From Thermus antranikianii DSM 12462 (lineage in GTDB: Bacteria > Deinococcota > Deinococci > Deinococcales > Thermaceae): a stretch of 64,000 nucleotides of DNA. Numbering within the stretch: position 1 is the stretch's first letter; the number at the start of each line of letters is the position of its first letter. The DNA lies in assembly GCF_000423905.1 (NCBI RefSeq), contig NZ_AUIW01000002.1:1-64000 (forward strand), read 5' to 3'. A program made the translations under genes and the position numbers. Under the pieces are notes generated by a model, which saw only the letters and a program-made list of their open reading frames with translations, was not told where the DNA came from and did no database searches. Below, piece after piece: positions 6,097 to 21,808 of the stretch.

Positions 6097-8010
6097 TCAG
6101 TACTTGAGCCTGGCCAGGGGCAATCTGGCGCAGGCCCTGAGCACCTCCCCCAGGGTGCGGTAGCCCTTGGCCCTGAGGAGGGGGACCATTCCTGCGAAGA
6201 CCTCTGCGGTCATGAGGGCATCCCCCAAGGCGGTGTGCCGGCCGATCACGGGCACGCCGAAGCGTTCCGCCAGGGTTTCCAGGCGGTGGTCCTGGAGGTC
6301 GGGGAAGAGCAGGTAGGAAAGGAGCAGGGTATCCACCAAAGGGGGCTGGTCGATCCCCACCCGCCGTAGGAAGGCCATGTCAAAGGCCCCGTTGTGGGCT
6401 AGGAGCACCGTGTCCTCCAGGAACAGGCGAAACCCAGGGAGCACCTCCTCCAGCTTGGGCTTTTCCTTCAGCATTTCCCAGGTGAGGCCGTGGATCTCGG
6501 TGGAGGCCTTGGGAATGGGGCGTCCAGGGTTGACCAGGGCCTCGAAGACCTCGTGGCGGAGCACCTTTTTCCCGAGGATGTGGACCGCCCCTAGGGCGAT
6601 GATGGCGTCCTTTTCCGGATCCAGGCCCGTGGTTTCCAGATCGAAGGCAGTGTACAGGAGGCCCTCCAGGGGAGCCTCTTCCAGTTCCTCGGGGGCGTGG
6701 AGCAGGGAGAGGTCGAAGACCTCGGCCCGGGGGGGAGGTCCTATCTTGGCGGGAAGCCGGGGGGCTTCCCGGGCGGGGAGGAGGAGGTGAAGGTGGGATC
6801 CTGCCCACCAAGCGCTCCCGCCGGACTTCTCCACCGCCTCCTTGAGAAGAGGGGGAAGGTCGGGGTGGGCGCCCCCTGGGCTTATAGGGGGCTTGGGCAG
6901 GGTGAGGGTGAGGTGGAGCAGGTTGCCCTCCCGCCTCCCCTCCAGGAAGGCTTCCTCCTCGTCCCTTAAGGCGGCGGCCAGGCCTCGAGCCAAGGCGTAG
7001 GTGTCCGCCTGGACCAGGAGGTTTCTGGCTTCCCCCTCCAGGGAGAACCCTGGGGAAACCCCTGTCTCCCGCTCCAGGGCCTGGGCCAGGAGGGCTAAAA
7101 GGTCTTCCGCCAATACCTCCGCCGCCTGGGCCGGGGCTTCCCAGGAGGCCACCAGCTGGCCGAGCTCCTCGGCGGTGGCCTTGGCGGTCTTGAGAAGGGG
7201 CTCGAGGGGGGTTCCCCTGGCTTCCTGGTCCAGGGCTTCCGCCAGGGCCTTGAGCCCCGCCAGCTTGTCCTTGAGGCGGTGGAGGAGGGCGGCATCCCAT
7301 CCGCCCTTTTCCCGGGCCTCCTCCAGGAGGACCAAAAACCCTCCCTCCCCCTCCAGGGGCACCACCTGGAGCCAAAGCGGTCCCTCGGGACCCTGGGTTA
7401 AAAACCGCTTCTCCGGCAGGCCCAGGGCGTGGACCATGAGCTCCCGGTCCAAGAGGCCGAAGAGGCTTTTGCCCACCCCTAGGCCCTGCCCCAGAAGCTC
7501 CCGGGCCCCCTGGTTGTAGAGGAGGACCTGGCCCTTGGGGTTGGCCAGCACCACCCCGTGGGGGAGGTGGCCGACGAGGGCGGAAAGCTTCCTCCTCTCC
7601 TCCTCCAGGAGGGATTTGGCCTCGGCGATGCGCGCTGCCACCTCCTTTTCCAAGGCCTCCTTTTCCTGGGCCAGGCGGTTGATGAGGTCCGCCAGGGCCC
7701 TGAGCTCAAAGGGCCCCCGGAGGCGCAGGCGGTGGCCAGGGTTGGCCAGGAGGATCTCCGCCTCCTGGCCCAGGGCCCGGGTGGCGGCCAGGTAGCCCAG
7801 GAAGACCGGGTAGAGGAGGGCGGCCAGCACCAAGGTGAAAAGGAAGCCCACGAAAAGGAGCACGGGTAGCTTCGCCTGAGCCAAGCGGAGAAGTTCCTTT
7901 TTCAGGCTCTCCTCCCCTTGAAGGAGGAGGAAAAGGCCCAGGCCCACGGTCCCCCCCACCAGGAGGAGGCCCAGAAGAAGGGCTCCCAAAAAGCGCAAGG
8001 TTTCCCTCAT
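6097..8010 (-). CDS. PAS / degenerate histidine kinase fused to DEDDh exonuclease
   Basis: A 637-residue membrane protein. Two helices (about 8-30 and 47-72) are followed by a HAMP-like coiled-coil (90-145), a PAS-like domain (145-235) and a dimerisation helix keeping His244 in LLHRLKDKLAGL. Next comes a segment in the place of an ATPase domain (about 300-412) that lacks the N-box Asn and the DxGxG box. Residues 450-620 are a DnaQ-type 3'-5' exonuclease with all catalytic residues: Asp457 and Glu459 in DLETTG, Asp544 in AHNGAFDMAF, and His592 and Asp597 in RHTALGDA. It overlaps the response-regulator gene by ATGA. Sensor-controlled nuclease activity at the membrane is an inference. Confidence 0.85.
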   Translation of the reverse strand: MRETLRFLGALLLGLLLVGGTVGLGLFLLLQGEESLKKELLRLAQAKLPVLLFVGFLFTLVLAALLYPVFLGYLAATRALGQEAEILLANPGHRLRLRGPFELRALADLINRLAQEKEALEKEVAARIAEAKSLLEEERRKLSALVGHLPHGVVLANPKGQVLLYNQGARELLGQGLGVGKSLFGLLDRELMVHALGLPEKRFLTQGPEGPLWLQVVPLEGEGGFLVLLEEAREKGGWDAALLHRLKDKLAGLKALAEALDQEARGTPLEPLLKTAKATAEELGQLVASWEAPAQAAEVLAEDLLALLAQALERETGVSPGFSLEGEARNLLVQADTYALARGLAAALRDEEEAFLEGRREGNLLHLTLTLPKPPISPGGAHPDLPPLLKEAVEKSGGSAWWAGSHLHLLLPAREAPRLPAKIGPPPRAEVFDLSLLHAPEELEEAPLEGLLYTAFDLETTGLDPEKDAIIALGAVHILGKKVLRHEVFEALVNPGRPIPKASTEIHGLTWEMLKEKPKLEEVLPGFRLFLEDTVLLAHNGAFDMAFLRRVGIDQPPLVDTLLLSYLLFPDLQDHRLETLAERFGVPVIGRHTALGDALMTAEVFAGMVPLLRAKGYRTLGEVLRACARLPLARLKY

Positions 8011-8366
8011 CGTCCTCCCGCCAGCTCCTCCACCTGGGAAAGGAAGTCCTGGATGCCAAAGGGCTTGGCCATGAAGGCCTCGGCTCCCAGGGCCAAGGCC
8101 TTGGCCCGGTCCGCCTCCCGCCCTCGGGCGGTGAGGACCAGGACCTTGGGCCTTTGGGATAGGGTCTTGGCCCGCTCCAAAACGGCGAAGCCATCCATGC
8201 CCGGAAGCATGAGGTCCAAGACCATGAGGTCAAAGGCTCCTCGGGATAGGGCCTCGAGGGCTTCCTCCCCCGTGCGGGCCAGAACCACCTCGTGCCCGGC
8301 CTTCTTCAAGAGGAACTCCAAAGGCACCAGGATGCTTTCCTCGTCGTCCACCACCAGGATCCTCAT
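8007..8366 (-). CDS. Single-domain response regulator (receiver only)
   Basis: A 119-residue CheY-like receiver. Asp7 and Asp8 in VVDDEE bind the metal, Asp51 in LMVLDLMLPG is the phosphorylation site, and Thr79 and Lys101 (AKPFG) complete the set. There is no DNA-binding output domain. The start at 8366 is chosen because it begins the receiver strand directly; a longer open frame upstream has no family similarity. The gene lies between a histidine kinase and the PAS-exonuclease gene, so it is the natural phospho-acceptor. Its output must come from protein contacts, perhaps with the exonuclease protein. The kinase frame overlaps its first 137 bases. Confidence 0.93.
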   Translation of the reverse strand: MRILVVDDEESILVPLEFLLKKAGHEVVLARTGEEALEALSRGAFDLMVLDLMLPGMDGFAVLERAKTLSQRPKVLVLTARGREADRAKALALGAEAFMAKPFGIQDFLSQVEELAGGR

Positions 8367-10902
8367 GCTCCACCTCCAGGGGAAGGGTGAAGGCGAAGGT
8401 AGCGCCCTCCCCCTCCTCCAACCAGATCCGTCCCCCCAGGCTTTCCACCAGCCTCCGCGCCAGGAAAAGGCCAAGGCCCGTGCCTCCGGAGAAGCTCTGG
8501 AAGGGTTCGAATACCAAGGCCCTGGCCTGGGGAGGCACTCCTGGACCGTCGTCGGAGACCCGGAAGAGGGCCTCGCGGTTGGTGAGGGTAAGCTCCAGGT
8601 GTACCCGGCTTCGGGCGTGGCGCAGGGCGTTGTGGAGGAGGTTCAAAAGCACCTGGAGGACCCGGTCCCGGTCCGTGAGGGCTTGGACCCCCGCCAGATG
8701 GGACTCCATTGTAATCCCCCTTTCCCGGGCTAAGGGTTCCACCAGGGCCAGGGCTTCCTCGGCTAGGGCCCGAAGGTCCGTGGGGCTGCGGGAGAGGGGC
8801 ACCCCTGCCTGGAGCCGGGTGTAGGCCAGGATCTCCTCCACCAGGCGGGAGAGCCTGGCGGTTTCCTTGACCAGAAGGGACACGAAGCGCCCACGCTCCT
8901 CCTCGGGAAGGTCGGGGTTGGCCTCGAGGATCTCCGCCAGGGCCCGTACGGCGGTGAGGGGGGTTTTGAGCTCGTGGGAAACCGCAGCCAGAAGCTCGTC
9001 CTTGGCCTGGTCCAGGGCCTTCAGGCGCTCGTAAGCCTCGGCGAGCTCCTTCCTGGCCTCCTCGAGGGCCTGGGCGTAGGCCCGAAGCTCCCGGGATTCC
9101 CGGGCTGCTTCCTCCACCTCCTCCCGCAGGGCTTCCGGGGGGGCCTCCCGGGTGACGGAGAGGAGGAGGAGCTTGGCGGTGGCGGGCCCCACGGACCCCG
9201 CCAGCAGGGTTTCCGCAAGTCCCGCTGCTTCCCGGCCCGGGAGGGCCCGGGGGCCTGACCCCGGTCCCCCAGATGGCCTACTCGCTGCTTCCCGGCCCGG
9301 GAGGGCCCGGGCCTGATGGCGGAAGCTTTCCTCCGCCTCCGGCCCCAAGACCCGCCTGAGGAGGGCGGCGAGCTCCTCCACCTCCCCGGTGCGCTCCTCC
9401 TGCAAGGCCTTCCGGCGGGTGAAGAGGGAAACCCCGAGGGTCAGGGCCAGGTTCAGGGTGAGGCTCGCCAAAAACCCGTGGGTCACGGGATCCAGGCCCC
9501 GGATTCCCAAAAGCCCTTCCGGCCTTAAGAGGGGATGGGGGCCTTCCAGAAAGAAGGAGGGGAGCCAGCCCGAGCGGGCCAGGGCGGGAAGGAAGAGGGT
9601 ATAAGCCCAGACGAGGATCCCTCCCAAGAGGCCCGCCAGGGCCCCTTGGGGGGTGGCTCCCCTCCAGAGGAGCCCGAGAAGGCCCGCCGGGGCCAGCTGG
9701 GCCACGGCCACAAAGGAGATGAGGCCCATGGCCACCAGGGCGTAGGCCTCTCCCGCCAGGCGGAAGTAGAGGTAGGCCAGGAGCATCACCGCCAGGATGG
9801 AGATCCTTCGCCAAAGGAGGAGGCTTCCCAGGGCACGGAAGCGGAGGAGGAGGGGGGAGAGGAGGTGGTTGGAAATGAGGATGGAAAGGGCCAGGCTTTC
9901 CACCACCACCATGGCCGTGGCCGCTGAGACCCCGCCCAGGAAGGCCAGAAGGGCCAAAGGAGCGCTCCCAAGCTCCAGGGGCAGGGCCAGCACGTAGAGG
10001 TCCGGGTTCCCTTCAGGCAGGAGAAGCCGGCCCCAAAGGGCCAGGGGAAGGATGGGCAGGTTGATGAGGAAAAGGTACAGGGGGAAGGCCCAGGCTGCCA
10101 GGCGGAGGTGCCGAGGGTCGGTGTTTTCCACCACGCTCACGTGGAACTGCCGGGGCAGGAAGAGAAAGGCGAGGCCAGAAAGGACCACCAGGCTCGCCCA
10201 CTCCAGGTAACCGGTAAGGCCCTCCTGGGGGAGGAGGAGGGGGAGGAGCTCGGGATGGCCTTGGATCCTGGGAAGGGGATTCCCCATCTGCCAAAGCACC
10301 AGCCCCCCCACGAGGAGGAGGGCTAGGAGCTTCACAAAGGACTCAAAGGCCACCGCCAATACCAGGCCCCGGTGTCGTTCCGAGGGATCCAGGCGGCGAG
10401 TTCCGAAGAGGATGGCGAAGAGGGCCAGGAGCAGGGCGGTGGGGAGGGCGATGTCCGTGGGGGGCTCCTCCTCGCCGCTGAGGAAGAGAAAGGCTTGGGC
10501 GATGGCCTTGAGCTGCAGGGCCAGGTAGGGAAGCAGGCCCACCACCAGAAAGGCGGCGGCCAGGGGGCCCAGGAAGCCATGGCCGAAGCGCAGGTAGAGG
10601 AAGTCAGCCCAGGAGGTGAGGCGGTGGGCGCGGGCCAGGGAGAGCAGTTTTTCGTGAAGAAACGGCCAGAGGAGGAGGACCAGGGTAGGCCCTAGGTAGA
10701 TGGGGAGGAAGCTGGCTCCTTCCACGGACGCCCAGCCCACGCTTCCCATAAAGGTCCAGGCGGTGGCGTAGACCGCCAGGGAGAGGGTGTACGCCCAGGG
10801 GCTTTGGACCAAAAAGCGTCCCCGCCCTTCCCCCAGGAGGGCCACCAGGAAGAGGAGGCCCAAGTAGAGGAAAAGGCTCAGGAGGAGAAGGAAGGGGTTC
10901 AT
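8230..10902 (-). CDS. Sodium/solute symporter-like sensor histidine kinase (CrbS/CbrA type)
   Basis: An 890-residue hybrid. Residues about 1-500 carry some 13 membrane helices of the SSS/SLC5 symporter fold, with YATAWTFMGSVGWASVEG near the start as in CbrA/CrbS proteins. A linker and coiled coil lead to HisKA with His643 in VSHELKTPL, then a complete ATPase domain: NLLHNALRHA (N box), SDDGPGVPP (G1) and GGTGLGLFLARRL (G2). CrbS-type kinases in other bacteria control acetyl-CoA synthetase genes, which matches the acs genes nearby. No PAS or STAC domain is evident. About 46 residues after LPLEVEHEDPGGG read across the response-regulator gene and look like a lost stop or frameshift. Confidence 0.9.
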   Translation of the reverse strand: MNPFLLLLSLFLYLGLLFLVALLGEGRGRFLVQSPWAYTLSLAVYATAWTFMGSVGWASVEGASFLPIYLGPTLVLLLWPFLHEKLLSLARAHRLTSWADFLYLRFGHGFLGPLAAAFLVVGLLPYLALQLKAIAQAFLFLSGEEEPPTDIALPTALLLALFAILFGTRRLDPSERHRGLVLAVAFESFVKLLALLLVGGLVLWQMGNPLPRIQGHPELLPLLLPQEGLTGYLEWASLVVLSGLAFLFLPRQFHVSVVENTDPRHLRLAAWAFPLYLFLINLPILPLALWGRLLLPEGNPDLYVLALPLELGSAPLALLAFLGGVSAATAMVVVESLALSILISNHLLSPLLLRFRALGSLLLWRRISILAVMLLAYLYFRLAGEAYALVAMGLISFVAVAQLAPAGLLGLLWRGATPQGALAGLLGGILVWAYTLFLPALARSGWLPSFFLEGPHPLLRPEGLLGIRGLDPVTHGFLASLTLNLALTLGVSLFTRRKALQEERTGEVEELAALLRRVLGPEAEESFRHQARALPGREAASRPSGGPGSGPRALPGREAAGLAETLLAGSVGPATAKLLLLSVTREAPPEALREEVEEAARESRELRAYAQALEEARKELAEAYERLKALDQAKDELLAAVSHELKTPLTAVRALAEILEANPDLPEEERGRFVSLLVKETARLSRLVEEILAYTRLQAGVPLSRSPTDLRALAEEALALVEPLARERGITMESHLAGVQALTDRDRVLQVLLNLLHNALRHARSRVHLELTLTNREALFRVSDDGPGVPPQARALVFEPFQSFSGGTGLGLFLARRLVESLGGRIWLEEGEGATFAFTLPLEVEHEDPGGGRRGKHPGAFGVPLEEGRARGGSGPHGGGSPRGPIPRSL
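9223..9311. repeat. 60-bp spaced direct repeat inside the kinase gene
   Basis: A 29-base sequence at 9223-9251 recurs exactly at 9283-9311, and the following GCCTGA also matches. It encodes ARALPGREAA twice, at about residues 531-560, between the symporter and kinase halves. It looks like a recent in-frame 60-bp duplication that lengthens the linker by 20 residues. Confidence 0.8.
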
Positions 10903-11075
10903 GGTCGGCGGAACAGGAGGTAGGCCAAAAGCACCACCAGGCCCCAGGAGCCGTAGAGGTAGAGGTAAAGGGGGGGAAGCCCCCAGGGCCCCAGGGGGCT
11001 GGGGAAGACCAGGCTTACGGGGAAGAGGAAAAGGAAAAGGGCCAGGAGGAAAAGGGCGAAGGACCTCTCCTTCAT
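10899..11075 (-). CDS. Small membrane protein, 58 residues
   Basis: MKERSFALFL begins a 58-residue protein with two hydrophobic helices (about 6-25 and 33-53) and a basic tail FRRP. Its 3' end overlaps the symporter-kinase start by ATGA, and its start overlaps the end of the CNB-CBS-DUF294 gene, so translation of all three is coupled. I do not recognise the family. The position suggests an accessory of the kinase or of the neighbouring symporter, comparable to the small DUF4212 subunit upstream. Confidence 0.65.
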   Translation of the reverse strand: MKERSFALFLLALFLFLFPVSLVFPSPLGPWGLPPLYLYLYGSWGLVVLLAYLLFRRP

Positions 11076-12820
11076 CGCAGCTGGAAGCGGCTTGCGGTGC
11101 TTTCCTGCATCTCGGCGATGGCCCGGAAACCCTCGAGGGCCTTCCGCCGTTCCCCTGGGGATAGGCTGGACCAAAGCACCCGGTTGCTCACCTCTCCACC
11201 CCGCTCCAGGGCCCGTAGCTGGTGTTTCAGGCGCAGGGCGAAGAAGAAACGGAAGGCCTCCTCGAGGCGTTCCGCTCCCTCTTGGCTTAGGGTGCCTCCC
11301 TCCGCCGCCGCCTTAAGCCTTTCCACCGTGCCCTTGGCCAGGCTTCCCGCCATGAGGGCGTAAAGCCGGGCCAGGGCCACGATGGGGGCGAGGGCGTGGC
11401 GCTTCAGGTCTATAAAGCCCTCCTCGGTACGCACCCTGCCGAAAAGGCCCAAGGGGGGGCGGAAGGCCAGGCTGGCCTGGGCCAGGTGGTAGCGGAACAC
11501 ACCTTTTTGGCTTCCTTCCAGAACCGCTTCCTCCAAGGGCTTCAGGGAAAGGCTTCCTGCGGCGGAGCGGAAATCGAAAAAGATCTGGGTATCCAGGAGG
11601 GCCTGGGGCTCGGGGGCCTCCATCCAGCGGCGGAAGGTGGCCACCCACTCCCCCAGGGGAAGCCGCCAGCGGGTGGCCATGTACCCCCCCTTGCACTCGG
11701 GAATCCCCGCCCGCAAAAGCCCCTCCACTACCCGCTCCGCCAGAGCCTGGAAGTAGGCTTCGTGCCCGGGTTCGGCCAGGACCAGGGCGTTGTCCTGGTC
11801 GGTCAAAAGGGCCTGCTCCCGGCGCCCTTCCGAACCGAAGACCATGAAGCTGTAGGCCACGGGAGGGGGTCCCAGCGCTTCCTCCGCTTCCTTGGCCAGG
11901 CGGCGGATCAGGGCGTCGTTGAGGGAGGCCACCACCCGGCCGATCTCCAGCCCCCCCAGGCCCCGGGCGAAGAGGCCTTCCACCAGGTGGGCCACCTCGA
12001 GGCTGTACCGCTCCAGCTCCAGGCGCTCAATCCGCCGCAGGAGCAGGAGGGGGCTTTGCGCCTGGTGCAGGAGGAGGTCGGTGTGGGTCACCACGCCCAC
12101 CACCCTTTCCCCTTCCGTGAGGGGCAGGTGGTGGATGCCCCGCTCCACCATGGCCGCCACTGCCTCGTAGAGGGGGGTTTCCGCCGGCAGGGCGAAGAGG
12201 GGGGCGGTCTGCACCTCCGCCACCCTTGTGGTGGGGGGACGGCCCTCGGCCAGCACCCGGTTGCGCAGGTCCCGGTCGGTGAGGATGCCCAGGGGTTCCC
12301 CAGCCACCAGGAGGCTGGAGATGCCCTCCTGTCGCATGATGCGGGCCGCCTCCGCCACCGTGGCCGAAGGGGGGATGAAGACGGGCTCCTTGCGCACAAG
12401 CCGCCCCACCGGGGCGAAAAGGGAGAGGTCGGGGGCCGCCTTCAGCCGCACCCGCTCCGCCAGCCCCTGCCCGAAAAAGCGGGCCGCCTCCGGGTGGGCG
12501 AGAAGCCGGTGGAAGGTGGCCTGCGGGAAGACCAAAAGCCGCACCGGCCCCTCCGCCTCCACGCTGAAGGCAGGGGCCTCCCCCGAAAGGAGGGAGGGGA
12601 AGCCGAAGAACTCCCCGGCCTCCAAAACCCCCACCTTTTCCTCCCCGTCCAGAAGGGCCACCTTCCCTTCCAGCACCAGGTAGAGGGCCTCCGCCGGCCT
12701 CCCGCCCTGCTCCAGGAAGCGGGTGCCCGCGGGGTGGGCTTCCTCCTTGGCCTCCTGGAGGAGGGCTTCCCGCTCAGCCTCGGGAAGGGCGCTCAGGGGT
12801 GGGACCGTTCTTGGGTCCAT
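11072..12820 (-). CDS. CNB / CBS-pair / DUF294 nucleotidyltransferase-like protein
   Basis: A 582-residue cytosolic protein with four parts: a cyclic-nucleotide-binding beta barrel (about 15-125), two CBS repeats (about 145-260, each with a TDRD/THTD-like nucleotide loop), a DUF294 nucleotidyltransferase fold with FMVFGSEGRREQALLTDQDN (about 320-350), and a helical DUF294 C-terminal domain. This family is regularly found beside acetate-type sodium symporters (VC_2705 subfamily), as here. It probably senses adenine nucleotides and may modify or bind a partner; the reaction is unknown. The start at 12820 lies 47 bases inside the preceding gene. Confidence 0.88.
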   Translation of the reverse strand: MDPRTVPPLSALPEAEREALLQEAKEEAHPAGTRFLEQGGRPAEALYLVLEGKVALLDGEEKVGVLEAGEFFGFPSLLSGEAPAFSVEAEGPVRLLVFPQATFHRLLAHPEAARFFGQGLAERVRLKAAPDLSLFAPVGRLVRKEPVFIPPSATVAEAARIMRQEGISSLLVAGEPLGILTDRDLRNRVLAEGRPPTTRVAEVQTAPLFALPAETPLYEAVAAMVERGIHHLPLTEGERVVGVVTHTDLLLHQAQSPLLLLRRIERLELERYSLEVAHLVEGLFARGLGGLEIGRVVASLNDALIRRLAKEAEEALGPPPVAYSFMVFGSEGRREQALLTDQDNALVLAEPGHEAYFQALAERVVEGLLRAGIPECKGGYMATRWRLPLGEWVATFRRWMEAPEPQALLDTQIFFDFRSAAGSLSLKPLEEAVLEGSQKGVFRYHLAQASLAFRPPLGLFGRVRTEEGFIDLKRHALAPIVALARLYALMAGSLAKGTVERLKAAAEGGTLSQEGAERLEEAFRFFFALRLKHQLRALERGGEVSNRVLWSSLSPGERRKALEGFRAIAEMQESTASRFQLR

Positions 12821-13145
12821 AGTCCGGGGTAATCCAGGCCAGGAGGGGGATGAGGAAGTGCAGGGCCACCTGGCCTCCCAGGAGGAGGGTAAAGCCCATC
12901 CCCAGCACGAAGGCCGGAGGAAGGAGGACCAGGAGCCGCACCACCCGGCCTATCCCCACCGGGGGCAGGGGCCAGATCCGGTGGTAGATGCGGCCCAGCC
13001 CCACCCCCACCAGGGCCCCCAGGGCCAGCTGGGCCAGGATGCCCGGGGTGGGAAAGGGGAAGCCCAGAAGGTAGTGCCCCCCCAGGTAAAAGGCGAAGAG
13101 GGCGGTCAGGCTGCCCAGGAAAAAGCGAAGGTAGCGTAGGTCCAT
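12774..13145 (-). CDS. Membrane protein of unknown function, 123 residues
   Basis: A protein with about three to four hydrophobic helices (residues 7-28, 33-52, 65-85 and 88-105) and a polar tail ITPDYGPKNGP. No family is recognised. It starts just downstream of the symporter terminator, with TAAAGT at 13151-13156 as a possible -10 box placing the transcript start at or next to the ATG. Its end overlaps the CNB-CBS-DUF294 gene by 47 bases. It is the first gene of the signalling run that continues to the PAS-exonuclease. Confidence 0.65.
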   Translation of the reverse strand: MDLRYLRFFLGSLTALFAFYLGGHYLLGFPFPTPGILAQLALGALVGVGLGRIYHRIWPLPPVGIGRVVRLLVLLPPAFVLGMGFTLLLGGQVALHFLIPLLAWITPDYGPKNGPTPERPSRG

Positions 13146-13167
13146 GCCTCACTTTACCCAAACCGAA

Positions 13168-13187
13168 GGGCCCCCTTGCGGGGGCCC
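13168..13187 (-). terminator. Hairpin terminator after the symporter gene
   Basis: GGGCCCCC (13168-13175) and GGGGGCCC (13180-13187) form an 8-bp stem with a 4-base loop, 6 bases after the symporter stop. The minus-strand flank TTCGGTTT is only moderately T-rich. It probably ends or weakens symporter transcripts before the signalling genes. Confidence 0.65.
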
Positions 13188-13192
13188 CTCGC

Positions 13193-14863
13193 CTAGTGCT
13201 CGGCGGCCGCTCCTGCCCCCTTGGGCACCCGGATCTCGTCCACCAGCTTCTGGATCTCCGCGGGGGGCGGGGGCGTGGCCCGGGAGACCAGGTAGGCCAC
13301 CAGGAAGTTGAGGAGCATGCCCACGGTGCCGATGCCCTCAGGGGAGATGCCGAAGAGGAAGCGGGGCCAGCCCAGGTAGTTGGTGCCCACGATGTAGGTG
13401 GCGGTGAAGACCAGGCCCACCAGCATCCCCGCCACCGCCCCTTGCGTGTTCATCCGGCGGTCAAAGATGCCGAGCAGAATGGCGGGGAAGAAGGTGCTGG
13501 CGGCCAGGCCGAAGGCGAAGGCCACCAGCTGGGCGATGAAGGCCGGGGGGTTGATGCCGAAGGGGGCGGCCAGCACCGTGACCAGGAGGATCACCACCCG
13601 GGCGATGGTGAGCTTGGTGGCCTCGGAGGCCTGGGGGTTGATGATGCGGGTGTAGAGGTCGTGGCTGATGGCGCTGGCCATGACGATGAGGAGGCCTGCC
13701 GCCGTGGAAAGGGCCGCCGCCAGACCCCCAGCCGCCACCAGGCCCACCACGATGGGGGAGAGCTTGGCCACCTCCGGCGTGGAGAGCACGATGATGTCCC
13801 GGTCAATGGTGATCTCGTTGGTGTCCTTGGCCGCGGTGATCTGGTACTTCCCGTCCCCGTTTTTGTCCTCCAGCTTGAGGAGGCCGGTCTTGCTCCACTT
13901 CTGCACCCAGTCAATCCCCTGGACCTCCTCCACGGTCTTGTTGGCCAGGGTGTTCAGGAGGTTGTACTTGGAGAAAACGGCCACGGCAGGAGCGGTGGTG
14001 TAGAGGAGGGCGATGAAGAGCAGGGCCCAGCCGGCGCTCCAGCGGGCGTCGGAGGCCTTGGGCACCGTGTAGAAGCGGATGATCACGTGGGGCAGGCCCG
14101 CGGTGCCCACCATGAGGGTCAGGGTGATGAGGAAGACGTTGAGCAGGTTCAGGTTCTGGAAGGGGGCCACGTACTCCTTGAGGCCCAGCTCCACCTGGAG
14201 CTGGCTGAGGCGCACGGCGAAGTCGGAGAAGGTGAAGGCCAGCTGGGGGATGGGGTTGCCGGTGAGGAAGTTGGACAGGGCGATGCCGGTGATCAGGTAG
14301 GCGATGATGAGCACGGTGTACTGGGCCACCTGGGTCCAGGTGATGCCCTTCATCCCCCCGATCACCGCGATGAAGGCGGTGACGATCACCGCAGCCCAGA
14401 CCCCCGTGGCCACGTCCACCCCCAGGTAGCGGGAGAGCACGATGCCCACGCCCCGGAGCTGGGGCACCGCGTAGGTGAAGGAGACGAAGATGGCGGCGAT
14501 CACCGCCACCACCCGGGCCAGGTTGGAGTAGTACCGGTCCCCCACGAACTCGGGCACCGTGTACTTGCCGTACTTCCGCAGGTAGGGGGCCAGGAGGAGG
14601 GCCAGGAGCACATACCCCCCGGTCCAGCCCATCAGGTAGACCGCCCCGTCGTAGCCCAGGAAGGAGATGAGGCCCGCCATGGAGATGAAGCTGGCGGCAG
14701 ACATCCAGTCGGCGGCGGTGGCGGCCCCGTTGGCTATGGGGGGTACCCCGCGCCCGGCCACGTAGAAGCCGGCGGTTTCCCGCACGCGGGCCCAGTAGCC
14801 GATGCCGAGGTAGAGGGCGAAGGTGGCCAGCACGATGATCCAGGTCCAGACTTCAGCGCTCAT
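13193..14863 (-). CDS. Sodium:solute (acetate-type) symporter, large subunit
   Basis: A 556-residue protein of the SSS family, VC_2705/ActP-like branch, with about 13 membrane helices. The N-terminus has VAGRGVPPIANGAATAADWM and SAASFISMAGL, the conserved cation and substrate region of this branch. A hydrophilic insert near residues 325-350 (LLKLEDKNGDGKYQI) faces one side of the membrane. It imports short carboxylates with Na+. It follows a DUF4212 small subunit by 11 bases, which is the standard two-gene arrangement. Two acs genes upstream would activate the imported acid. Acetate, propionate or a related acid are possible; the substrate is not fixed by sequence. Confidence 0.9.
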   Translation of the reverse strand: MSAEVWTWIIVLATFALYLGIGYWARVRETAGFYVAGRGVPPIANGAATAADWMSAASFISMAGLISFLGYDGAVYLMGWTGGYVLLALLLAPYLRKYGKYTVPEFVGDRYYSNLARVVAVIAAIFVSFTYAVPQLRGVGIVLSRYLGVDVATGVWAAVIVTAFIAVIGGMKGITWTQVAQYTVLIIAYLITGIALSNFLTGNPIPQLAFTFSDFAVRLSQLQVELGLKEYVAPFQNLNLLNVFLITLTLMVGTAGLPHVIIRFYTVPKASDARWSAGWALLFIALLYTTAPAVAVFSKYNLLNTLANKTVEEVQGIDWVQKWSKTGLLKLEDKNGDGKYQITAAKDTNEITIDRDIIVLSTPEVAKLSPIVVGLVAAGGLAAALSTAAGLLIVMASAISHDLYTRIINPQASEATKLTIARVVILLVTVLAAPFGINPPAFIAQLVAFAFGLAASTFFPAILLGIFDRRMNTQGAVAGMLVGLVFTATYIVGTNYLGWPRFLFGISPEGIGTVGMLLNFLVAYLVSRATPPPPAEIQKLVDEIRVPKGAGAAAEH

Positions 14864-14874
14864 GGGCGTTCCTC

Positions 14875-15126
14875 CTAGTCCTCAAAGCCGTACTTCCGGT
14901 CCAGGGCCGCCATGCGGCTGGCGTAGTAGAAGATGAGGATGACGAAGACGTAGATGCTCCCCTGCTGGGCGATCCAAAAGCCCAAGGGGGGCCCGCCGAA
15001 GACCCGGATAGCGTTCAGGGGCTCGGCCAGCAGGATGCCCAGCACATAAGAGGCCAAGGCCCAGATGATGAGGAGGTTTCGGATAAGACTTAGGTTTTCC
15101 TTCCAGTATGCCTCCAGCGCGCTCAT
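14875..15126 (-). CDS. Sodium/solute symporter small subunit (DUF4212)
   Basis: An 83-residue membrane protein with two helices (about 16-37 and 47-70). It has the DUF4212 features YWKENLSLIRNLLIIWALAS at the start and FPW-like GPPLGFWIAQQGSIYVFVIL further on. It partners the large SSS subunit encoded next. The ATG at 15126 has GGGAGGGAG just upstream and is preferred over the longer frame that starts in the 5' leader. Confidence 0.9.
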   Translation of the reverse strand: MSALEAYWKENLSLIRNLLIIWALASYVLGILLAEPLNAIRVFGGPPLGFWIAQQGSIYVFVILIFYYASRMAALDRKYGFED

Positions 15127-15340: not shown

Positions 15341-17224
15341 CTACTCCTCCAGGGTGGAGAGGTCTCCCGGGTCCTTGCCCAGTTCCCGGGCCTTCAGGAG
15401 GCGCCTGAGGATTTTCCCCGAGCGGGTCTTGGGCAGCTTGTCCAGGAAGACGATCTCGCTGGGGGTGGCGATGGGCCCCAGTTCCCGGCGCACGTGCTGG
15501 ACCAGGCCCTCCTTCAGCTCTTCGGAAGGGGTTTGCCCTAGGCGCAGGACCACAAAGGCCTTGATGGCCTCCCCCTTCAGGGGGTCGGGCACCCCGATCA
15601 CCGCGGCCTCGGCCACTGCCGGGTGGGAGACCAGGGCGCTTTCCACATCCGCGGTGCCGATGCGGTGCCCGGCCACGTTCAAGACGTCGTCCGCCCGGCC
15701 GAGGACGCTGAAGTAGCCCTCCTCGTCCTGGCTCGCCACGTCCCCAGCGGCGTAGACCCCGCCCGGGACCTCGCGCCAGTACTGGAGGTAGCGCTCGTGG
15801 TTGCCCCAGACGGTGCGCATCATGTGGGGGAAGGGGCGCCGGAGGACCAGAAGCCCTCCCTGCCCTGGGGGCACGGGCCTGCCCTCCTCGTCCACCACCC
15901 CCGCCTCCACCCCAGGCAGGGCCACCCCGGCGAAGCCGGGTTTGGCCGGGAACACCAGGGGGGTGCCCAGGGTGGGCCCGCCCAGCTCCGTCTGCCACCA
16001 GTTGTCGGCCACAAAGCCCCGCCGACCCCCATCCACCAGGTGCTGGTAAGCCCAGCGCAGGGCCTCGGGGTTTAAGGGTTCCCCGGCCACGGCGATGAGG
16101 CGCAGGGAGGAAAGGTCGTATCGGGCAGGCCACTCGGGGCCGAACTTCATGAAAAGGCGCACCGCGGTGGGGGCGGTGAACATCACGTTCACCCGGTGGC
16201 GCTCCACCACCTGCCAGAAGGCCCCGGGGTCGGGGTAGTCGGGGGCTCCTTCCCGGAGGAGGCTGGTGACCCCCTCCAGGAGGGGGGCGTAGACGATGTA
16301 GGAGTGGCCCACGATCCAGCCGATGTCGCTGGTGGCCCAGAAGAGGTCGTCGTCCTTTACGTCGAAGAAGGTGCGCAGGTGGTAGGTGGTGCCCACCATG
16401 TATCCCCCGTGGACGTGCACCACCCCTTTGGGTTTCCCCGTGGAGCCGGAGGTGTAAAGGATGAAGAGGGGGTGCTCCGCCTCCACCATCTCTGCCCGGG
16501 CCTCTGGGGGGCTTCCCCAGAGGATTTCCTGGAAGTCGTAATGCCCCTCGGGAAGCTCCGCCTGGAAGGCCCGCTGGAACCAGACCACCTGGAGGGGCAG
16601 GTCCTTGATGGCCTCCTCCACGATGGAGCGGAGGTCCACTCCCTTGCCCCTTCGGTAGCTCACATCCCCGGCGATGAGGAGCTTGGCCCCGGCGTCCAGG
16701 ATGCGTTCCCGCAGGGCGCTCACCCCAAGCCCGGCGTAGACCACGCTGTGGATGGCCCCCAGGTAGGCGGTGGCCAGCATGGCCAGGATGCCCTCGAGGG
16801 TTAAGGGCATGTAGATGACCACCCGGTCCCCCTTCTCTACCCCAAGGCGCCTAAGCCCCGTGGCCAGGCGGCGCACCCGGTCCAAAAGCTCCCCGTAGGT
16901 GAGCTTCTCCTCCCGGCCGTCCTCGGAGAGGTAGAGGAGGGCCACCTTGTTCCTCAGGCCCCTTTCCACATTGCGTTCCAGGGCGTTGTAGACGGCGTTG
17001 GTGGTGCCTCCCAAGAACCAGCGGTGCTCGGGAAGGTTCCACTCGAGGACCTTTTCAAAGGGCTTCTCCCAGTAGAACCTCCGGGCCCATTCCCCCCAGA
17101 AGCCCTCGGGGTCCTCGAGGCTTCGCCGGTACTCTTCAGGGAAATTCTGGAGATTCGCCCTAAGGCGCACCTCCTCCGGGGCCCAAAGCCGTTCCTCCGC
17201 CTTAAGAAGCTTTTGCACCACCAT
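15341..17224 (-). CDS. Acetyl-CoA synthetase-like acyl-CoA ligase
   Basis: A 627-residue AMP-forming ligase of the AcsA type. It shows [20 protein letters not shown] (P-loop), DNWWQTELGG (acyl pocket with the double Trp), [20 protein letters not shown] (hinge region) and [11 protein letters not shown] with Lys604, the lysine usually regulated by acetylation. It activates a short carboxylate to acyl-CoA through acyl-AMP. The canonical acs on the other side of the fusion gene has DTWWQTETG, so this paralog may prefer another acid such as propionate; that is inference. The start MVVQKLL overlaps the fusion gene by 23 bases, so the two are coupled. Confidence 0.9.
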   Translation of the reverse strand: MVVQKLLKAEERLWAPEEVRLRANLQNFPEEYRRSLEDPEGFWGEWARRFYWEKPFEKVLEWNLPEHRWFLGGTTNAVYNALERNVERGLRNKVALLYLSEDGREEKLTYGELLDRVRRLATGLRRLGVEKGDRVVIYMPLTLEGILAMLATAYLGAIHSVVYAGLGVSALRERILDAGAKLLIAGDVSYRRGKGVDLRSIVEEAIKDLPLQVVWFQRAFQAELPEGHYDFQEILWGSPPEARAEMVEAEHPLFILYTSGSTGKPKGVVHVHGGYMVGTTYHLRTFFDVKDDDLFWATSDIGWIVGHSYIVYAPLLEGVTSLLREGAPDYPDPGAFWQVVERHRVNVMFTAPTAVRLFMKFGPEWPARYDLSSLRLIAVAGEPLNPEALRWAYQHLVDGGRRGFVADNWWQTELGGPTLGTPLVFPAKPGFAGVALPGVEAGVVDEEGRPVPPGQGGLLVLRRPFPHMMRTVWGNHERYLQYWREVPGGVYAAGDVASQDEEGYFSVLGRADDVLNVAGHRIGTADVESALVSHPAVAEAAVIGVPDPLKGEAIKAFVVLRLGQTPSEELKEGLVQHVRRELGPIATPSEIVFLDKLPKTRSGKILRRLLKARELGKDPGDLSTLEE

Positions 17225-19733
17225 ATTCCTCCTCCAATACAGAAACATCTCCAGGGTCTAAGCCCAGGAGCTCCGCCTTTAGGAGCCGTCTTAGGATCTT
17301 GCCGCTTCGGGTACGGGGCAGGCGCTCCACGAAAACCACCCGGGGAGGGGGAACCGGTCCCAGGTGCCGCAAAAGGTGGGCTTTGATCTTCTCGGCCAGG
17401 AGGGCCTTGAGCTCCTCGGGCACCTCCTTCTTGGGAACCGCAAAGACCACGATTTCCTCGCCTTCCTCCCCGGGGATCCCGATGGCGGCTGCCTCCGCCA
17501 CCTGGGGGTGGGTGAGGGCGGCCGCCTCCACCTCGGCGGTGCCGAGCCGGGCCTCCCCCACCTTGATGACCTCCTCGGAGCGGCCCAGGATGCGAAAGTA
17601 GCCTTCCTCGTCCCAGGTGGCGAGGTCCCCCGTCCAGTAGAGCCCACCCCGCCAGGGGCTTTCCCCCCCAAGGAGGTCCACCATGTGGGCCGGCCCTGCC
17701 CTCAGGAGCACCAGGTGGCCCTTGGCCCCTGGAGGGAGGACCTGCCCTTCCCCGTCCACCACCCGGGCCTCCACCCCGGGCAAGGGGATGCCCACGAAGC
17801 CCGGCTTGGCGGGGAGGGTGAGGGGGGTGGCCAGGGCAGGGGCCCCCAGCTCGGTCTGCCACCAGTTGTCCAGGGGCCAGGCCAGGTTCTCCCGGGTCCA
17901 GCGCCACACCTCAGGGGCCAGGGCCTCCCCCACGCTCCCCACCAGGCGCAAGGAGGTGGGCCGGGCTTCCCCGTGGCGGCGCAGGGTGCGGAGCACCGTA
18001 GGGGAGGTGAGGAGCACGTCCACCCCGAACCGCCTTAGCCTCTCGTAGAAGGCGGCGGGGTTGGGGTGGTCCGGCCGGTCCTCCACCAGGAGGCTGGTAC
18101 CCCCCAGGAAGAGCGGGGCGTACAGGCCGAAGGAATGCCCCACCACCCAAAAGAGGTCGGCGGTGGTGTGGAAGACCTCTCCCGGTTTCAGGTCAAAGAG
18201 GTAGCGGAGGGCCCAGCTTACCCCCACCATGTACCCTCCGTGGCCGTGGACCACCCCCTTGGGCTTGCCCGTGGAGCCCGAGGTGTGGAGGATGAAGAGG
18301 GGATGCTGGGCGGGAACGGGGACGGCGTCCGCGGGCTTTCCCTCCGAGGCCCTTTCCAGAAACTCCGTGGTGCCCCGGGTGTGCCAGAGCACGGGAAGAT
18401 CCAGGCCCGAAAGGGCTGCCTCCACCACCGGCCTTAAGGGGATGAGCTGGCCCCGGCGGAAGTAGCCGTCGGCGGCCACCAGGAGACGGGCTTGACCCTG
18501 CAGGAGCCGCTCCCTTAAGGCTTCCGGGCCCAGGCCCACGGGCAGGGCCACGTGCACCGCCCCAATCCGTGCCAAGGCCAGGAGGCTCAAGGCGGCCTCC
18601 AGCCCCGTGGGCAGGTAGAGGGCCACCCGGTCCCCCCGCTTTACCCCTAGGGCCTGGAAGACCCCGGCGAGGCGGCTGGAGAGGTCCAAAAGTTCCCGGT
18701 AGGTCCACTTTTCCAGGTGCCCATCCCCATCCAGGGTGATGAGGGCCACCTGCTGGGCCTTTTCGGGCAGGTGGCGGTCTAAGGCGTTTAAGGCGGCGTT
18801 GGTCCGCCCCCCACCGAACCAGGTGTGGGTGGCAGGGTCATAGACCCTTTCCCAAGAGGTTTCCCAGTGGAACTCCCGGGCGAAGCTGCCGAAAAAGCTT
18901 TCGGGATCCTCGAGGCTTGCCTGGTAGGCCCTGGGGTAGTCCCGCAGGTTGGCCCTTTCCTTAAGGGCGCAGGGGGGTTCCACCACCTCCACCTGGAGGC
19001 TCGGTTCCAAGGGAGGGGCCAGGCTGGGGGGCTCGGGGGGGCGCAGGTGGGCGGACACCTGGGCCACCTCAGAAAGGGCCCGGGCCAGGCGGCTGAAGGC
19101 GAAGGGGAAGCGCCGGGCGGGCACCACCACCCCCAAAGCCCCCAGAAGCTGCCCCTCGGGGCCGAAGAGGGGGGCCGCTAGGCCGGAAAGCCCCTGGGCG
19201 TACTCCTCCATCTCCGCCGCCAACCCCGACTCCCGCACCCGGGCCAGCTCCTCCTCCAGGGCCAGGGGGTCGGTGAGGGTATAGGGGGTGCGGGGGCGCA
19301 AGGGGGGAAGGGGCAGGGCCCCGTGGGCCAGGAGGACCTTCCCCAGGGCCAGGGCGTGGGCTTCCTCCGGCAGGCTCTCCCCCAGGGGGTGGGGCTGGCC
19401 CTGCCGGCCCCGGGTTTTGAGCCGGATCCCTTCCGGGGTCAGAAGGGCCAGGTAGCACCGCTCCCGGGTGCGGAGGTAGAGTTCCTCCAGGGCCTCCTCG
19501 AGGGGCGTGGTCTCCAGCCGGAGGGGCTTGGCCTGGCCCAGGCGGTATCCCCGCTCCGTCTTCACGGCGAAGCCCTCCTCCGCCAGGCTGTTGAGAAGGG
19601 CGTAGGCGGTGGAGAGGCTCTTCCCCAGGAGGCGGGCCACCTCCTTTACCCCCACCCCTTCCGGGTGCTCGGCCAGGTAGGCCAGGATGCGCAGGGCCGC
19701 CTGGACCGTGGAAAGGCTCCTCTTCCTGGCCAT
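17202..19733 (-). CDS. IclR-type regulator fused to an acetyl-CoA synthetase-like enzyme
   Basis: An 843-residue single open frame. Residues 5-62 are the IclR winged helix-turn-helix (ALRILAYLAEHPEGVGVKEV, then GKSLSTAYALLNSLAEEGF). Residues about 75-228 are the IclR ligand domain, with GLSGLAAPLFGPEGQLLGAL. A proline-rich linker (about 230-255) leads to a complete AcsA-like ligase: [46 protein letters not shown] and RTRSGKILRR with Lys812. The hinge motif is altered (GRSEEVIKVGEARLG instead of GR.DDV..VAGHRLG), so catalysis may be weakened. It is divergent from acs and upstream of the second ligase. An enzyme-linked regulator of acyl-CoA synthesis is the inferred role. Confidence 0.92.
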   Translation of the reverse strand: MARKRSLSTVQAALRILAYLAEHPEGVGVKEVARLLGKSLSTAYALLNSLAEEGFAVKTERGYRLGQAKPLRLETTPLEEALEELYLRTRERCYLALLTPEGIRLKTRGRQGQPHPLGESLPEEAHALALGKVLLAHGALPLPPLRPRTPYTLTDPLALEEELARVRESGLAAEMEEYAQGLSGLAAPLFGPEGQLLGALGVVVPARRFPFAFSRLARALSEVAQVSAHLRPPEPPSLAPPLEPSLQVEVVEPPCALKERANLRDYPRAYQASLEDPESFFGSFAREFHWETSWERVYDPATHTWFGGGRTNAALNALDRHLPEKAQQVALITLDGDGHLEKWTYRELLDLSSRLAGVFQALGVKRGDRVALYLPTGLEAALSLLALARIGAVHVALPVGLGPEALRERLLQGQARLLVAADGYFRRGQLIPLRPVVEAALSGLDLPVLWHTRGTTEFLERASEGKPADAVPVPAQHPLFILHTSGSTGKPKGVVHGHGGYMVGVSWALRYLFDLKPGEVFHTTADLFWVVGHSFGLYAPLFLGGTSLLVEDRPDHPNPAAFYERLRRFGVDVLLTSPTVLRTLRRHGEARPTSLRLVGSVGEALAPEVWRWTRENLAWPLDNWWQTELGAPALATPLTLPAKPGFVGIPLPGVEARVVDGEGQVLPPGAKGHLVLLRAGPAHMVDLLGGESPWRGGLYWTGDLATWDEEGYFRILGRSEEVIKVGEARLGTAEVEAAALTHPQVAEAAAIGIPGEEGEEIVVFAVPKKEVPEELKALLAEKIKAHLLRHLGPVPPPRVVFVERLPRTRSGKILRRLLKAELLGLDPGDVSVLEEEYGGAKAS

Positions 19734-19861: not shown

Positions 19862-21808
19862 ATGGACCGGATCGAAGGCGTTCTCAAGGAGGAGCGGGTC
19901 TTCTATCCCAGCGAGGAGTTCCGGAGCAGGGCCCACATCAAGAGCGAGGAGGAGTACCAGCGCCTGTACGAGGAAAGCCTAAAAGACCCCGAGGGCTTCT
20001 GGGGACGGGTGGCCTCCGAGCTCCACTGGTTCGAACCTTGGCAGAAGGTTTTGGAGGGGGACCTGCCCCACGCCAAGTGGTTCGTGGGGGGTAAGACCAA
20101 CCTGTCCTATAACGCCCTGGACCGGCATGTCCAAACCTGGCGGCGCAACAAGGCGGCCCTCATCTGGGAGGGGGAGCCAGGGGAGGAGAGGGTCTTGACC
20201 TACCACGACCTTTGGCGGGAGGTGCAGAAGTTCGCCAACGTCCTCAAGCGCCTGGGCGTCAAGAAGGGGGACCGGGTCACCATCTACCTTCCCATGGTTC
20301 CCGAGGCCGCCATCGCCATGCTGGCCTGCACCCGCATCGGGGCGGTGCACTCCGTGGTCTTCGGGGGCTTCTCCAGCGGGGCCCTGGCCGACCGCATCAA
20401 GGACGCCGAGGCCAAGGTGCTGATTACCGCCGACGGGGGCTACCGCCGCGGCCAGGTGGTGCCCCTGAAGCAGAACGCGGACGAGGCCCTGAAGGAGACC
20501 ACCAGCGTGGAGCACGTGGTGGTGGTGCGCCGCACCGGGGAGGAGGTCCCCTGGACCCCGGGCCGGGACCACTGGTGGCACGAGCTCATGGAGGCGGCCT
20601 CCGACCGCTGTGAACCCGAACCCATGGAGGCGGAAGATCCCCTCTTCATCCTTTACACCTCCGGCTCCACGGGGAAGCCCAAGGGGGTCCTGCACACCAC
20701 GGGCGGCTACATGACCTACGTCTACCTCACCACCAAGCTGGTCTTTGACCTCAAGGACGAGGACGTCTACTGGTGCACCGCCGACGTGGGCTGGATCACC
20801 GGCCACTCCTATGTGGTCTATGGGCCCCTTTTGAACGGGGCCACCACGGTGATGTACGAGGGAGCCCCCAACTGGCCCGAGCCCGACCGCTTCTGGCAGA
20901 TCGTGGACAAGTACGGGGTGAACATCCTCTACACCGCTCCCACCGCCATCCGGGCCTTCATGAAGTGGGGCGAGGGTTGGCCCCTCAAGCACCGGCTGGA
21001 TTCCTTGCGCCTTTTGGGCACCGTAGGGGAGCCCATCAACCCCGAGGCCTGGCTCTGGTACTACCAGGTGATCGGGAAGGGCCGTTGCCCCATCGTGGAC
21101 ACCTGGTGGCAGACGGAAACCGGGGGCATCATGATCACCACCCTGCCCGGGGCGCATCCCATGAAGCCTGGGCATGCGGGAAAGCCCTTCTTCGGGGTGA
21201 AGCCGGAGATCCTGGACTCCGAGCACAAGCCGGTGGAGAATCCCAACGAGGGCGGGCACCTTTGCATCACCCGTCCCTGGCCCAGCATGCTCCGCACCGT
21301 CTGGGGGGATCCCAACCGCTTCCTGCAGCAGTACTTCAGCCAGCACCCCGGCAACTACTTCACCGGGGATGGGGCCCGTCGGGATAAGGATGGCTACTAC
21401 CTGATCCTGGGCCGGGTGGACGACGTCCTGAACGTGGCCGGGCACCGGCTTGGCACCATGGAGATCGAGTCCGCCTTGGTTTCCCATCCCGCGGTGGCTG
21501 AGGCGGCGGTGGTGGGCCGGCCCGACCCCTTGAAGGGGGAGGCCATCGTGGCCTTCGTGACCCTGAAGGAAGGGCATGCTCCCTCCGATGCCTTGCGGGA
21601 CGAGCTCAAGGCCCACGTGGCCAAGGTGATCGGGCCCATTGCCCGCCCGGACGAGGTGCGCTTCACGGATGCCCTGCCCAAGACCCGCTCCGGCAAGATC
21701 ATGCGCCGCCTCTTGAGGCAGATCGCCGCCGGGGAGCAGGAGATCAAGGGGGATATCTCCACCCTCGAGGACCGCTCGGTGGTGGAGCGCCTAAGGCAAG
21801 GGGCCTAG
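19862..21808 (+). CDS. acs: Acetate-CoA ligase (acetyl-CoA synthetase)
   Basis: A 648-residue canonical AMP-forming AcsA that makes acetyl-CoA from acetate, ATP and CoA. All family blocks are intact: [80 protein letters not shown] and [13 protein letters not shown] with the regulatory Lys612. The ATG has AGGGAGG 5 bases upstream. It is transcribed alone, divergently from the IclR-ACS fusion, and ends in a terminator. Control through the shared intergenic region is likely. Confidence 0.96.

Follow-up and report, generated by a model that had tools for sequence, protein, structure and literature searches.

Among the described systems closest to the one reported here, CrbS/CrbR (MxtR/ErdR) likewise relies on an SLC5-STAC histidine kinase, CrbS, which controls acetate genes, and both actP and a DUF294 protein belong to the CrbS/R regulon (PMC5715377). 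CrbS is, however, a hybrid kinase with a C-terminal receiver (PMC5715377) and acts via a LuxR-type DNA-binding regulator, whereas in our locus the kinase is non-hybrid, the receiver is the product of a separate gene, and a predicted pseudokinase-nuclease comes next. A preliminary description of this DNA had drawn a contrast with CrbS/CrbR on the grounds that the regulator there binds DNA; the contrast stands inasmuch as no cognate LuxR-type DNA-binding regulator lies next door in our locus, but it is inexact, because CrbS already carries a receiver of its own. The CbrX-CbrA/CbrB system of Pseudomonas shares with our locus a two-helix peptide of about 58 residues whose gene overlaps, and is translationally coupled to, that of an SLC5-STAC kinase, and CbrX binds the SLC5 domain of CbrA (PMC13022988). 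CbrB, however, is a sigma-54 activator and that system includes no nuclease, while ours does. What DivK-DivL of Caulobacter has in common with our locus is a single-domain receiver paired with a pseudo-histidine kinase that bears a PAS domain; replacement of the acceptor His, seen in DivL (PMC4211667), has its counterpart in receiver-linked relatives of our protein outside the Thermaceae. In DivL, Tyr550 stands in place of the His and R553, at position +3, is required for DivK binding; lineages without DivK, in fact, are often without the DHp-CA core of DivL as well (PMC4211667). DivL, on the other hand, retains its N and G boxes and controls the kinase CckA without an enzymatic domain of its own, while the pseudokinase predicted here carries an exonuclease. 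HK853 and RR468 of Thermotoga maritima, a cognate pair, are the nearest solved relatives of our kinase core and of our receiver (the lone receiver RR468 itself as well as RR468 mutants), but they come without an SLC5 module, and we know of no nuclease partner for them. To our knowledge, no nuclease output has been established for a two-component system, and few cases are known in which a lone receiver is read by a pseudo-histidine kinase, DivL-DivK among them. A search of the open-access literature found no published PAS-exonuclease or receiver-nuclease system.

The window analyzed here is a stretch of 64,000 nucleotides from Thermus antranikianii DSM 12462 (contig NZ_AUIW01000002.1, positions 1 to 64,000). 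Within it, we show by sequence comparison that, adjoining a putative cluster for the uptake and activation of a carboxylate, a set of coupled genes encodes an intact kinase with a CbrX-like partner, an intact receiver, and a protein in which transmembrane helices, a PAS domain, a pseudokinase core and an exonuclease are predicted to follow one another. Six minus-strand genes occupy positions 6097-13145, and their open reading frames and domain matches agree with what the preliminary description had read there: a 123-aa membrane protein of no recognized family (12774..13145), whose place between the symporter and DUF294 genes is conserved in the Thermaceae; a 582-aa CNB-2xCBS-DUF294 nucleotidyltransferase-DUF294_C protein (11072..12820) with an intact GS...DQD catalytic motif, whose residues are invariant in 10 relatives; a two-helix membrane protein of 58 aa (10899..11075); an SLC5-STAC-type histidine kinase (8230..10902); a single-domain response regulator, or REC, of 119 aa (8007..8366); and a 637-aa protein referred to here as PAS-EXO (6097..8010). 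Consecutive genes overlap by 47, 4, 4, 137 and 4 nt, with the 4-nt overlap recurring at three joins and the 3' end of the kinase frame responsible for the 137 nt shared with REC, and translational coupling is therefore likely.

The run extends further 5' of these six genes, which the preliminary description had missed. Still on the minus strand lie the large subunit of a sodium/solute symporter (13193..14863), its small DUF4212 partner (14875..15126; PF13937, 4.7e-34), the acetyl-CoA-synthetase-like (ACS-like) gene acs1 (15341..17248; Pfam ACAS_N, AMP-binding and AMP-binding_C), and an 843-aa in-frame fusion of an IclR regulator to an ACS-like enzyme (17202..19733; HTH_IclR 3.7e-13, IclR_C 6.6e-16, AMP-binding 1.4e-71), while a divergent acetyl-CoA synthetase gene, acs3, lies on the plus strand (19862..21808) and is syntenic in relatives. 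With TIGR03648 scoring above its cut-off (798 bits against 320.75) and the DUF4212 partner present, the symporter belongs to the VC_2705 family. The fusion gene is conserved in Thermaceae, and its product is a candidate local DNA-binding regulator. This genomic setting points to acetate, or a short carboxylate like it, as the compound that is taken up and activated. At its 3' end the run is convergent with purD, whose product finds its best solved match in the PurD structure 2ip4 (E 2.7e-237), the T. thermophilus enzyme, in keeping with the genus Thermus.

The SLC5-STAC kinase looks active, since its H, N, G1 and G2 boxes (SHELKTP, NLLHNALRHA, DDGPGVP and GGTGLGLF) are all intact. Residues 9-538 have the histidine kinase 10ed_A as best PDB match (5.9e-70), the Pfam SSF match is weak (0.016), and a putative STAC four-helix linker, read by eye, lies between residues ~525 and ~620. 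The 58-aa protein, relatives of which are conserved 5' of other SLC5-HK genes, resembles CbrX in size, hairpin form, position and overlap with the kinase gene, and is by analogy a CbrX-like kinase partner. As for the receiver, it matches Pfam Response_reg (3.5e-26), lacks an output domain, as already described, and keeps all of the D/D/D/T/K phosphorylation motifs (DDE, VLDLMLP, LTAR and KPFG).

In Pfam, the PAS-EXO of the window matches PAS and RNase_T (2.4e-33) only. An AF2 model based on a 45-row alignment (pLDDT 84, pTM 0.40), in which the domains are reliable and, given the pTM, their mutual arrangement is not, shows in order two transmembrane helices, a long signalling helix, the PAS domain (residues 150-231), an antiparallel helix pair, an alpha/beta domain and the nuclease. 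The helix pair (240-264 and 270-289) appears from model and alignment to be a DHp-like hairpin (residues ~240-289; 7144..7293, minus strand), in which the phospho-acceptor position is taken by His244, with Arg245 and Lys247 following at +1 and +3, and the alpha/beta domain a CA-like one (residues ~297-415; 6766..7122, minus strand), in whose sequence no N-box, G-box or GxG motif is found. Foldseek relates the non-nuclease part to WalK, VicK, ThkA and NifL and the nuclease part to DnaQ/PolC exonucleases, and taken with the AF2 model indicates that a kinase-like DHp-CA fold is kept; Pfam HisKA is detectable in 7 of 47 PAS-EXO relatives and HATPase_c in none of the 47. The nuclease domain (residues ~452-637; 6100..6657, minus strand) has the same catalytic core and the same five active-site residues (D457, E459, D544, H592 and D597) as the DnaQ/PolC-type DEDDh exonucleases, and these residues, spread over three Exo motifs, are invariant in 45 relatives; unlike DnaQ/PolC, it is predicted to be anchored in the membrane and joined to a sensor core that resembles a kinase. 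By motif and model, PAS-EXO is a pseudo-histidine kinase (two transmembrane helices, PAS, DHp and a degenerate CA domain) fused to what reads as an intact DEDDh exonuclease. The degenerate kinase core between PAS and nuclease had gone unnoticed in the preliminary description. Such a dead core within the nuclease protein is where a receiver would naturally dock.

In the pathway that we propose, the SLC5 module would sense a carboxylate, probably acetate, which is suggested as ligand because of the three ACS-like genes and the VC_2705-type symporter; the kinase would phosphorylate the lone receiver; and the phosphorylated receiver would dock on the dead DHp bundle of PAS-EXO, as DivK does on DivL, without passing any phosphate on. 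Docking, together with the PAS input, would turn the membrane-bound exonuclease on or off, and this enzyme might work with the adjoining DUF294 nucleotidyltransferase. A two-component pathway of this kind, in which a kinase acts through a lone receiver whose DivL-style docking on a pseudokinase gates a membrane-tethered nuclease, is on balance the probable reading of the sequence and of the analogy with DivL. More tentative, and possible rather than probable, is the wider proposal of a widespread new class of two-component systems, composed of a transporter-type kinase, a lone receiver, dead-kinase docking and a membrane 3'-5' exonuclease, which would link carboxylate sensing directly, with no transcription factor in between, to the processing of nucleotides or nucleic acids. 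Copies of the module are found in Proteobacteria, Chloroflexota, Nitrospirota and Thermaceae, with culturable hosts that include Paracoccus denitrificans and Thermus, and if our reading is true it would offer a first concrete clue as to why DUF294 nucleotidyltransferases and DnaQ-like nucleases are found beside acetate symporters, including PA3232-PA3235 of Pseudomonas.

A scan of genome contigs yielded at least 80 PAS-EXO loci beyond the Thermaceae and their phylum, in Proteobacteria, Desulfuromonadales, Chloroflexota and Nitrospirota; loci were selected by PAS-EXO itself and the best 80 taken, so that all frequencies given here are conditional on its presence. Plasmids of Paracoccus, Cupriavidus, Shinella and Limimaricola carry additional PAS-EXO loci, and a kinase search of plasmids at 1e-60 returned a single match. 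The notion that the lone receiver might be peculiar to the strain or the genus was rejected, as the same gene order is conserved in Paracoccus, Burkholderiales, Rhodocyclales, Colwellia, a Chloroflexota MAG and others. One locus of P. denitrificans PD1222 reads DUF294, 81-aa protein, kinase, receiver and exonuclease (PDEN_RS25395-25415), and a second, with no kinase, reads acs, DUF4212, symporter, DUF294, hypothetical protein, receiver and exonuclease. Among the matches listed, a receiver lies directly 5' of PAS-EXO in at least 61 loci, 58 of them outside the Thermaceae, most commonly with a 4-nt overlap, and it is a single-domain receiver in that fewer than 15 residues follow the receiver domain in 60 of the 61 (18 in the remaining one). 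The kinase is directly 5' of the receiver in about 40 of these 61 listed loci and not in about 21, a figure that counts L081 solely since its genes overlap; in 13 of the latter no SLC5-kinase is present in the fetched stretch, some being short contigs. Because of these ~21 loci, receiver and exonuclease make up the more constant pair, and the idea that the receiver merely follows the kinase was rejected.

This pairing bears on an alternative that gives the lone receiver the part of an intermediate or phosphate sink, like the cis receiver of hybrid CrbS, makes transcription by a distant NarL/LuxR-type DNA-binding regulator the real output, and treats the nuclease as a mere co-regulated neighbor. 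CrbS and RpuS are in fact hybrid kinases, each with a LuxR-type regulator as partner (PMC5715377, PMC9100948); the genome, with 16 receivers in all, encodes at least two regulators of NarL/LuxR type that have no kinase gene beside them (C9:78350 and C1:200261); and the cluster itself includes the IclR-ACS fusion. When gene order changes, however, the receiver stays by the nuclease and not by the kinase, and a map of named families shows neither histidine phosphotransfer proteins nor DNA-binding regulators as recurrent genes of the mapped loci. We consider this alternative unlikely.

Closer relatives were covered by the survey of gene order in other Thermus genomes that the preliminary description had called for, and the complete block was found in the same order in 24 of 27. 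Concern that the order might not be conserved outside this strain is thus dispelled, both for the genus and, as seen above, for other phyla. The block is fragmentary in one Thermus genome (G020), and two (G005 and G013) have a reduced version consisting of an ActP-type symporter, a DUF294 protein without CNB domain and a short nuclease, with kinase, receiver and small proteins all missing. Across the phylum the SLC5 kinase is present in 25 of 111 genomes (the 24 Thermus and G058), and these are exactly the 25 with a DHp-bearing PAS-EXO; in the sister genome G071 both kinase and receiver are missing, and the DHp hairpin is gone from PAS-EXO. Other Thermaceae genera have acs, DUF4212, symporter, membrane protein and DUF294, then an unrelated short DnaQ-like protein. 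Homology of all nucleases at this position was rejected, since in the nuclease-domain tree, many deep forks of which are weak, these short proteins sit on a very long branch, whereas those of G005 and G013, which look truncated, group within the Thermaceae PAS-EXO clade.

The reduced block of G005 and G013 bears on one part of the preliminary description. Its wiring from kinase through lone receiver to nuclease gains from the conservation of the receiver-nuclease pair across phyla and from the dead kinase core, but nucleic-acid turnover as the output is not supported, because there the nuclease stays beside DUF294 and symporter with neither kinase nor receiver, and it may therefore act on a nucleotidyl tag or on a small nucleotide. 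A second alternative builds on this point: instead of acting on bulk nucleic acid, the nuclease would take off a nucleotidyl tag, or break down a small nucleotide, that the CNB-CBS-DUF294 protein makes or senses, the two acting as eraser and writer to tune the symporter or ACS, and kinase, receiver and pseudokinase would be a later layer of control. Symporter, DUF294 and exonuclease are kept without kinase or receiver in Limimaricola and Shinella as well as in G005/G013, an unrelated DnaQ-like protein occupies the same place in other genera, and DUF294 is found in 30 of 45 full-length PAS-EXO loci. A Pol-beta-type motif is intact in the DUF294 protein, whose C-terminal domain is a member of the GlnD/GlnE/HEPN-type clan (PMC3710099); PA3232-PA3235 of the P. 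aeruginosa actP cluster rise together on propionate (PMC9765439), and the DUF294 protein of the CrbS/R regulon is Pflu5625 (PMC5715377). Weighing against it, no substrate or modified target is known, and 11 of the 45 full-length loci have no DUF294, symporter or ACS nearby. DnaQ-type enzymes, moreover, are typically nucleic-acid exonucleases. We regard this alternative, too, as improbable. The persistence of DUF294 and nuclease without two-component genes, together with the Pseudomonas expression data, indicates that the nuclease has been linked to DUF294 for no less time than to the receiver.

Residues at the dead acceptor speak to the docking step of the pathway that we favor. Among the listed matches, the acceptor position of 57 REC-linked PAS-EXO outside the Thermaceae is occupied by E in 43, R in 4, D in 3, A and Q in 2 each, and M, S and I in 1 each, so that a phospho-His is found in none of the 57. 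Arg at +3, on the contrary, is present in 56 of the 57 REC-linked proteins, whereas only 12 of the 23 that lack an adjacent receiver have it (Fisher p 1.3e-6, a value that ignores phylogeny). Arg or Lys at +3 is common among HisKA domains generally, and its conservation therefore partly reflects ancestry. Thermaceae PAS-EXO depart from this pattern, with His in 19 of 22, Phe in 2 and Arg in 1 at the acceptor position, the acidic residue at +1 lost, and Lys or Arg kept at +3; as most Thermus proteins keep the His, phosphotransfer to it is conceivable there.

Co-loss of DHp and kinase was counted in genomes whose PAS-EXO is without an adjacent receiver, which were searched for the SLC5-kinase; DHp was called kept or degraded by our own classification from the alignment, and plasmid loci and Desulfuromonadales-type loci, the latter from genomes with a different SLC5-containing kinase, were left out. 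Where the DHp is kept, a related SLC5-kinase is encoded elsewhere in 7 of 9 genomes, and the second locus of L105, L112, L119 and L148 is again kinase, receiver and PAS-EXO; L121 and L124, both MAGs, keep the DHp without a receiver, and no SLC5-kinase was found on searching them. Where the DHp is deleted or degraded (L116, L117, L125, L163, G071, G005 and G013), the kinase is present in 0 of 7 (Fisher p 0.003; counting G005/G013 once gives 0.007). Grouping of these genes without any direct wiring, solely through joint induction during acetate growth, would fit the varying operon partners around the core and the exchange of the symporter-to-DUF294 block between species independently of the kinase half, but it is very unlikely, because the pattern of pseudokinase degeneration, the loss of DHp with the kinase and the receiver-nuclease adjacency without kinase all point to specific contact. 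Outside the Thermaceae, presence versus absence of the DHp also goes with receiver adjacency (57/0 with an adjacent receiver against 20/3 without, p 0.02, weakly significant), a comparison than which the residue-level and genome-level tests are more telling.

Judging from sequence comparison, the operon seems to be a mosaic of two parts, at 11072-15126 and 6097-10902, in which the symporter-DUF294 block was apparently swapped between species. The genes within the former part that encode the symporter, the DUF4212 protein and a 123-aa membrane protein are 99-100% identical to those of the genome G012, and that for the CNB-CBS-DUF294 nucleotidyltransferase is 95% identical, whereas the nearest relatives of the PAS-exonuclease and the histidine kinase (6097-10902) reside in G023 and G022. 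The G022 symporter, in fact, shares only 44% identity with that of the window. The 123-aa membrane protein gene (12774-13145, minus strand) keeps its position between symporter and DUF294 across the Thermaceae, and neither Pfam nor NCBIfam assigns its product to a family. In loci L056 (genome G013) and L058 (G005), the DUF294 proteins have lost the cyclic-nucleotide-binding domain; kinase and receiver are also lost in these genomes, and an ActP-type symporter takes the place of the usual one.

The kinase reading frame extends 137 nt into the receiver gene, in a different frame (8230-8366, minus strand). Because the kinase stop lies shortly past the receiver start in several relatives, this long overlap seems to have arisen locally, when a stop codon was lost. 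The kinase linker also carries an insertion of about 20 residues (RALPGREAASRPSGGPGSGP, 9223-9308) that includes a short tandem duplication; it occurs once in the genome and is missing in relatives. In two relatives, L051 (G007, about 2370) and L053 (G003, about 2350), the PAS-exonuclease reading frame is interrupted after the CA-like part and before the exonuclease, each time by a different small indel. Either the protein was split in two independently in each case, or C-rich runs were misread.

Upstream of the symporter, an IclR-family regulator and an acetyl-CoA-synthetase-like enzyme are fused in frame (17202-19733, minus strand; 843 aa), a type of fusion that is not known to have been described before. 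A transcription factor is here joined to the enzyme of a pathway that may be under its control. The fusion is kept throughout the Thermaceae and is also present, in identical order, in G035, a genome of another family.
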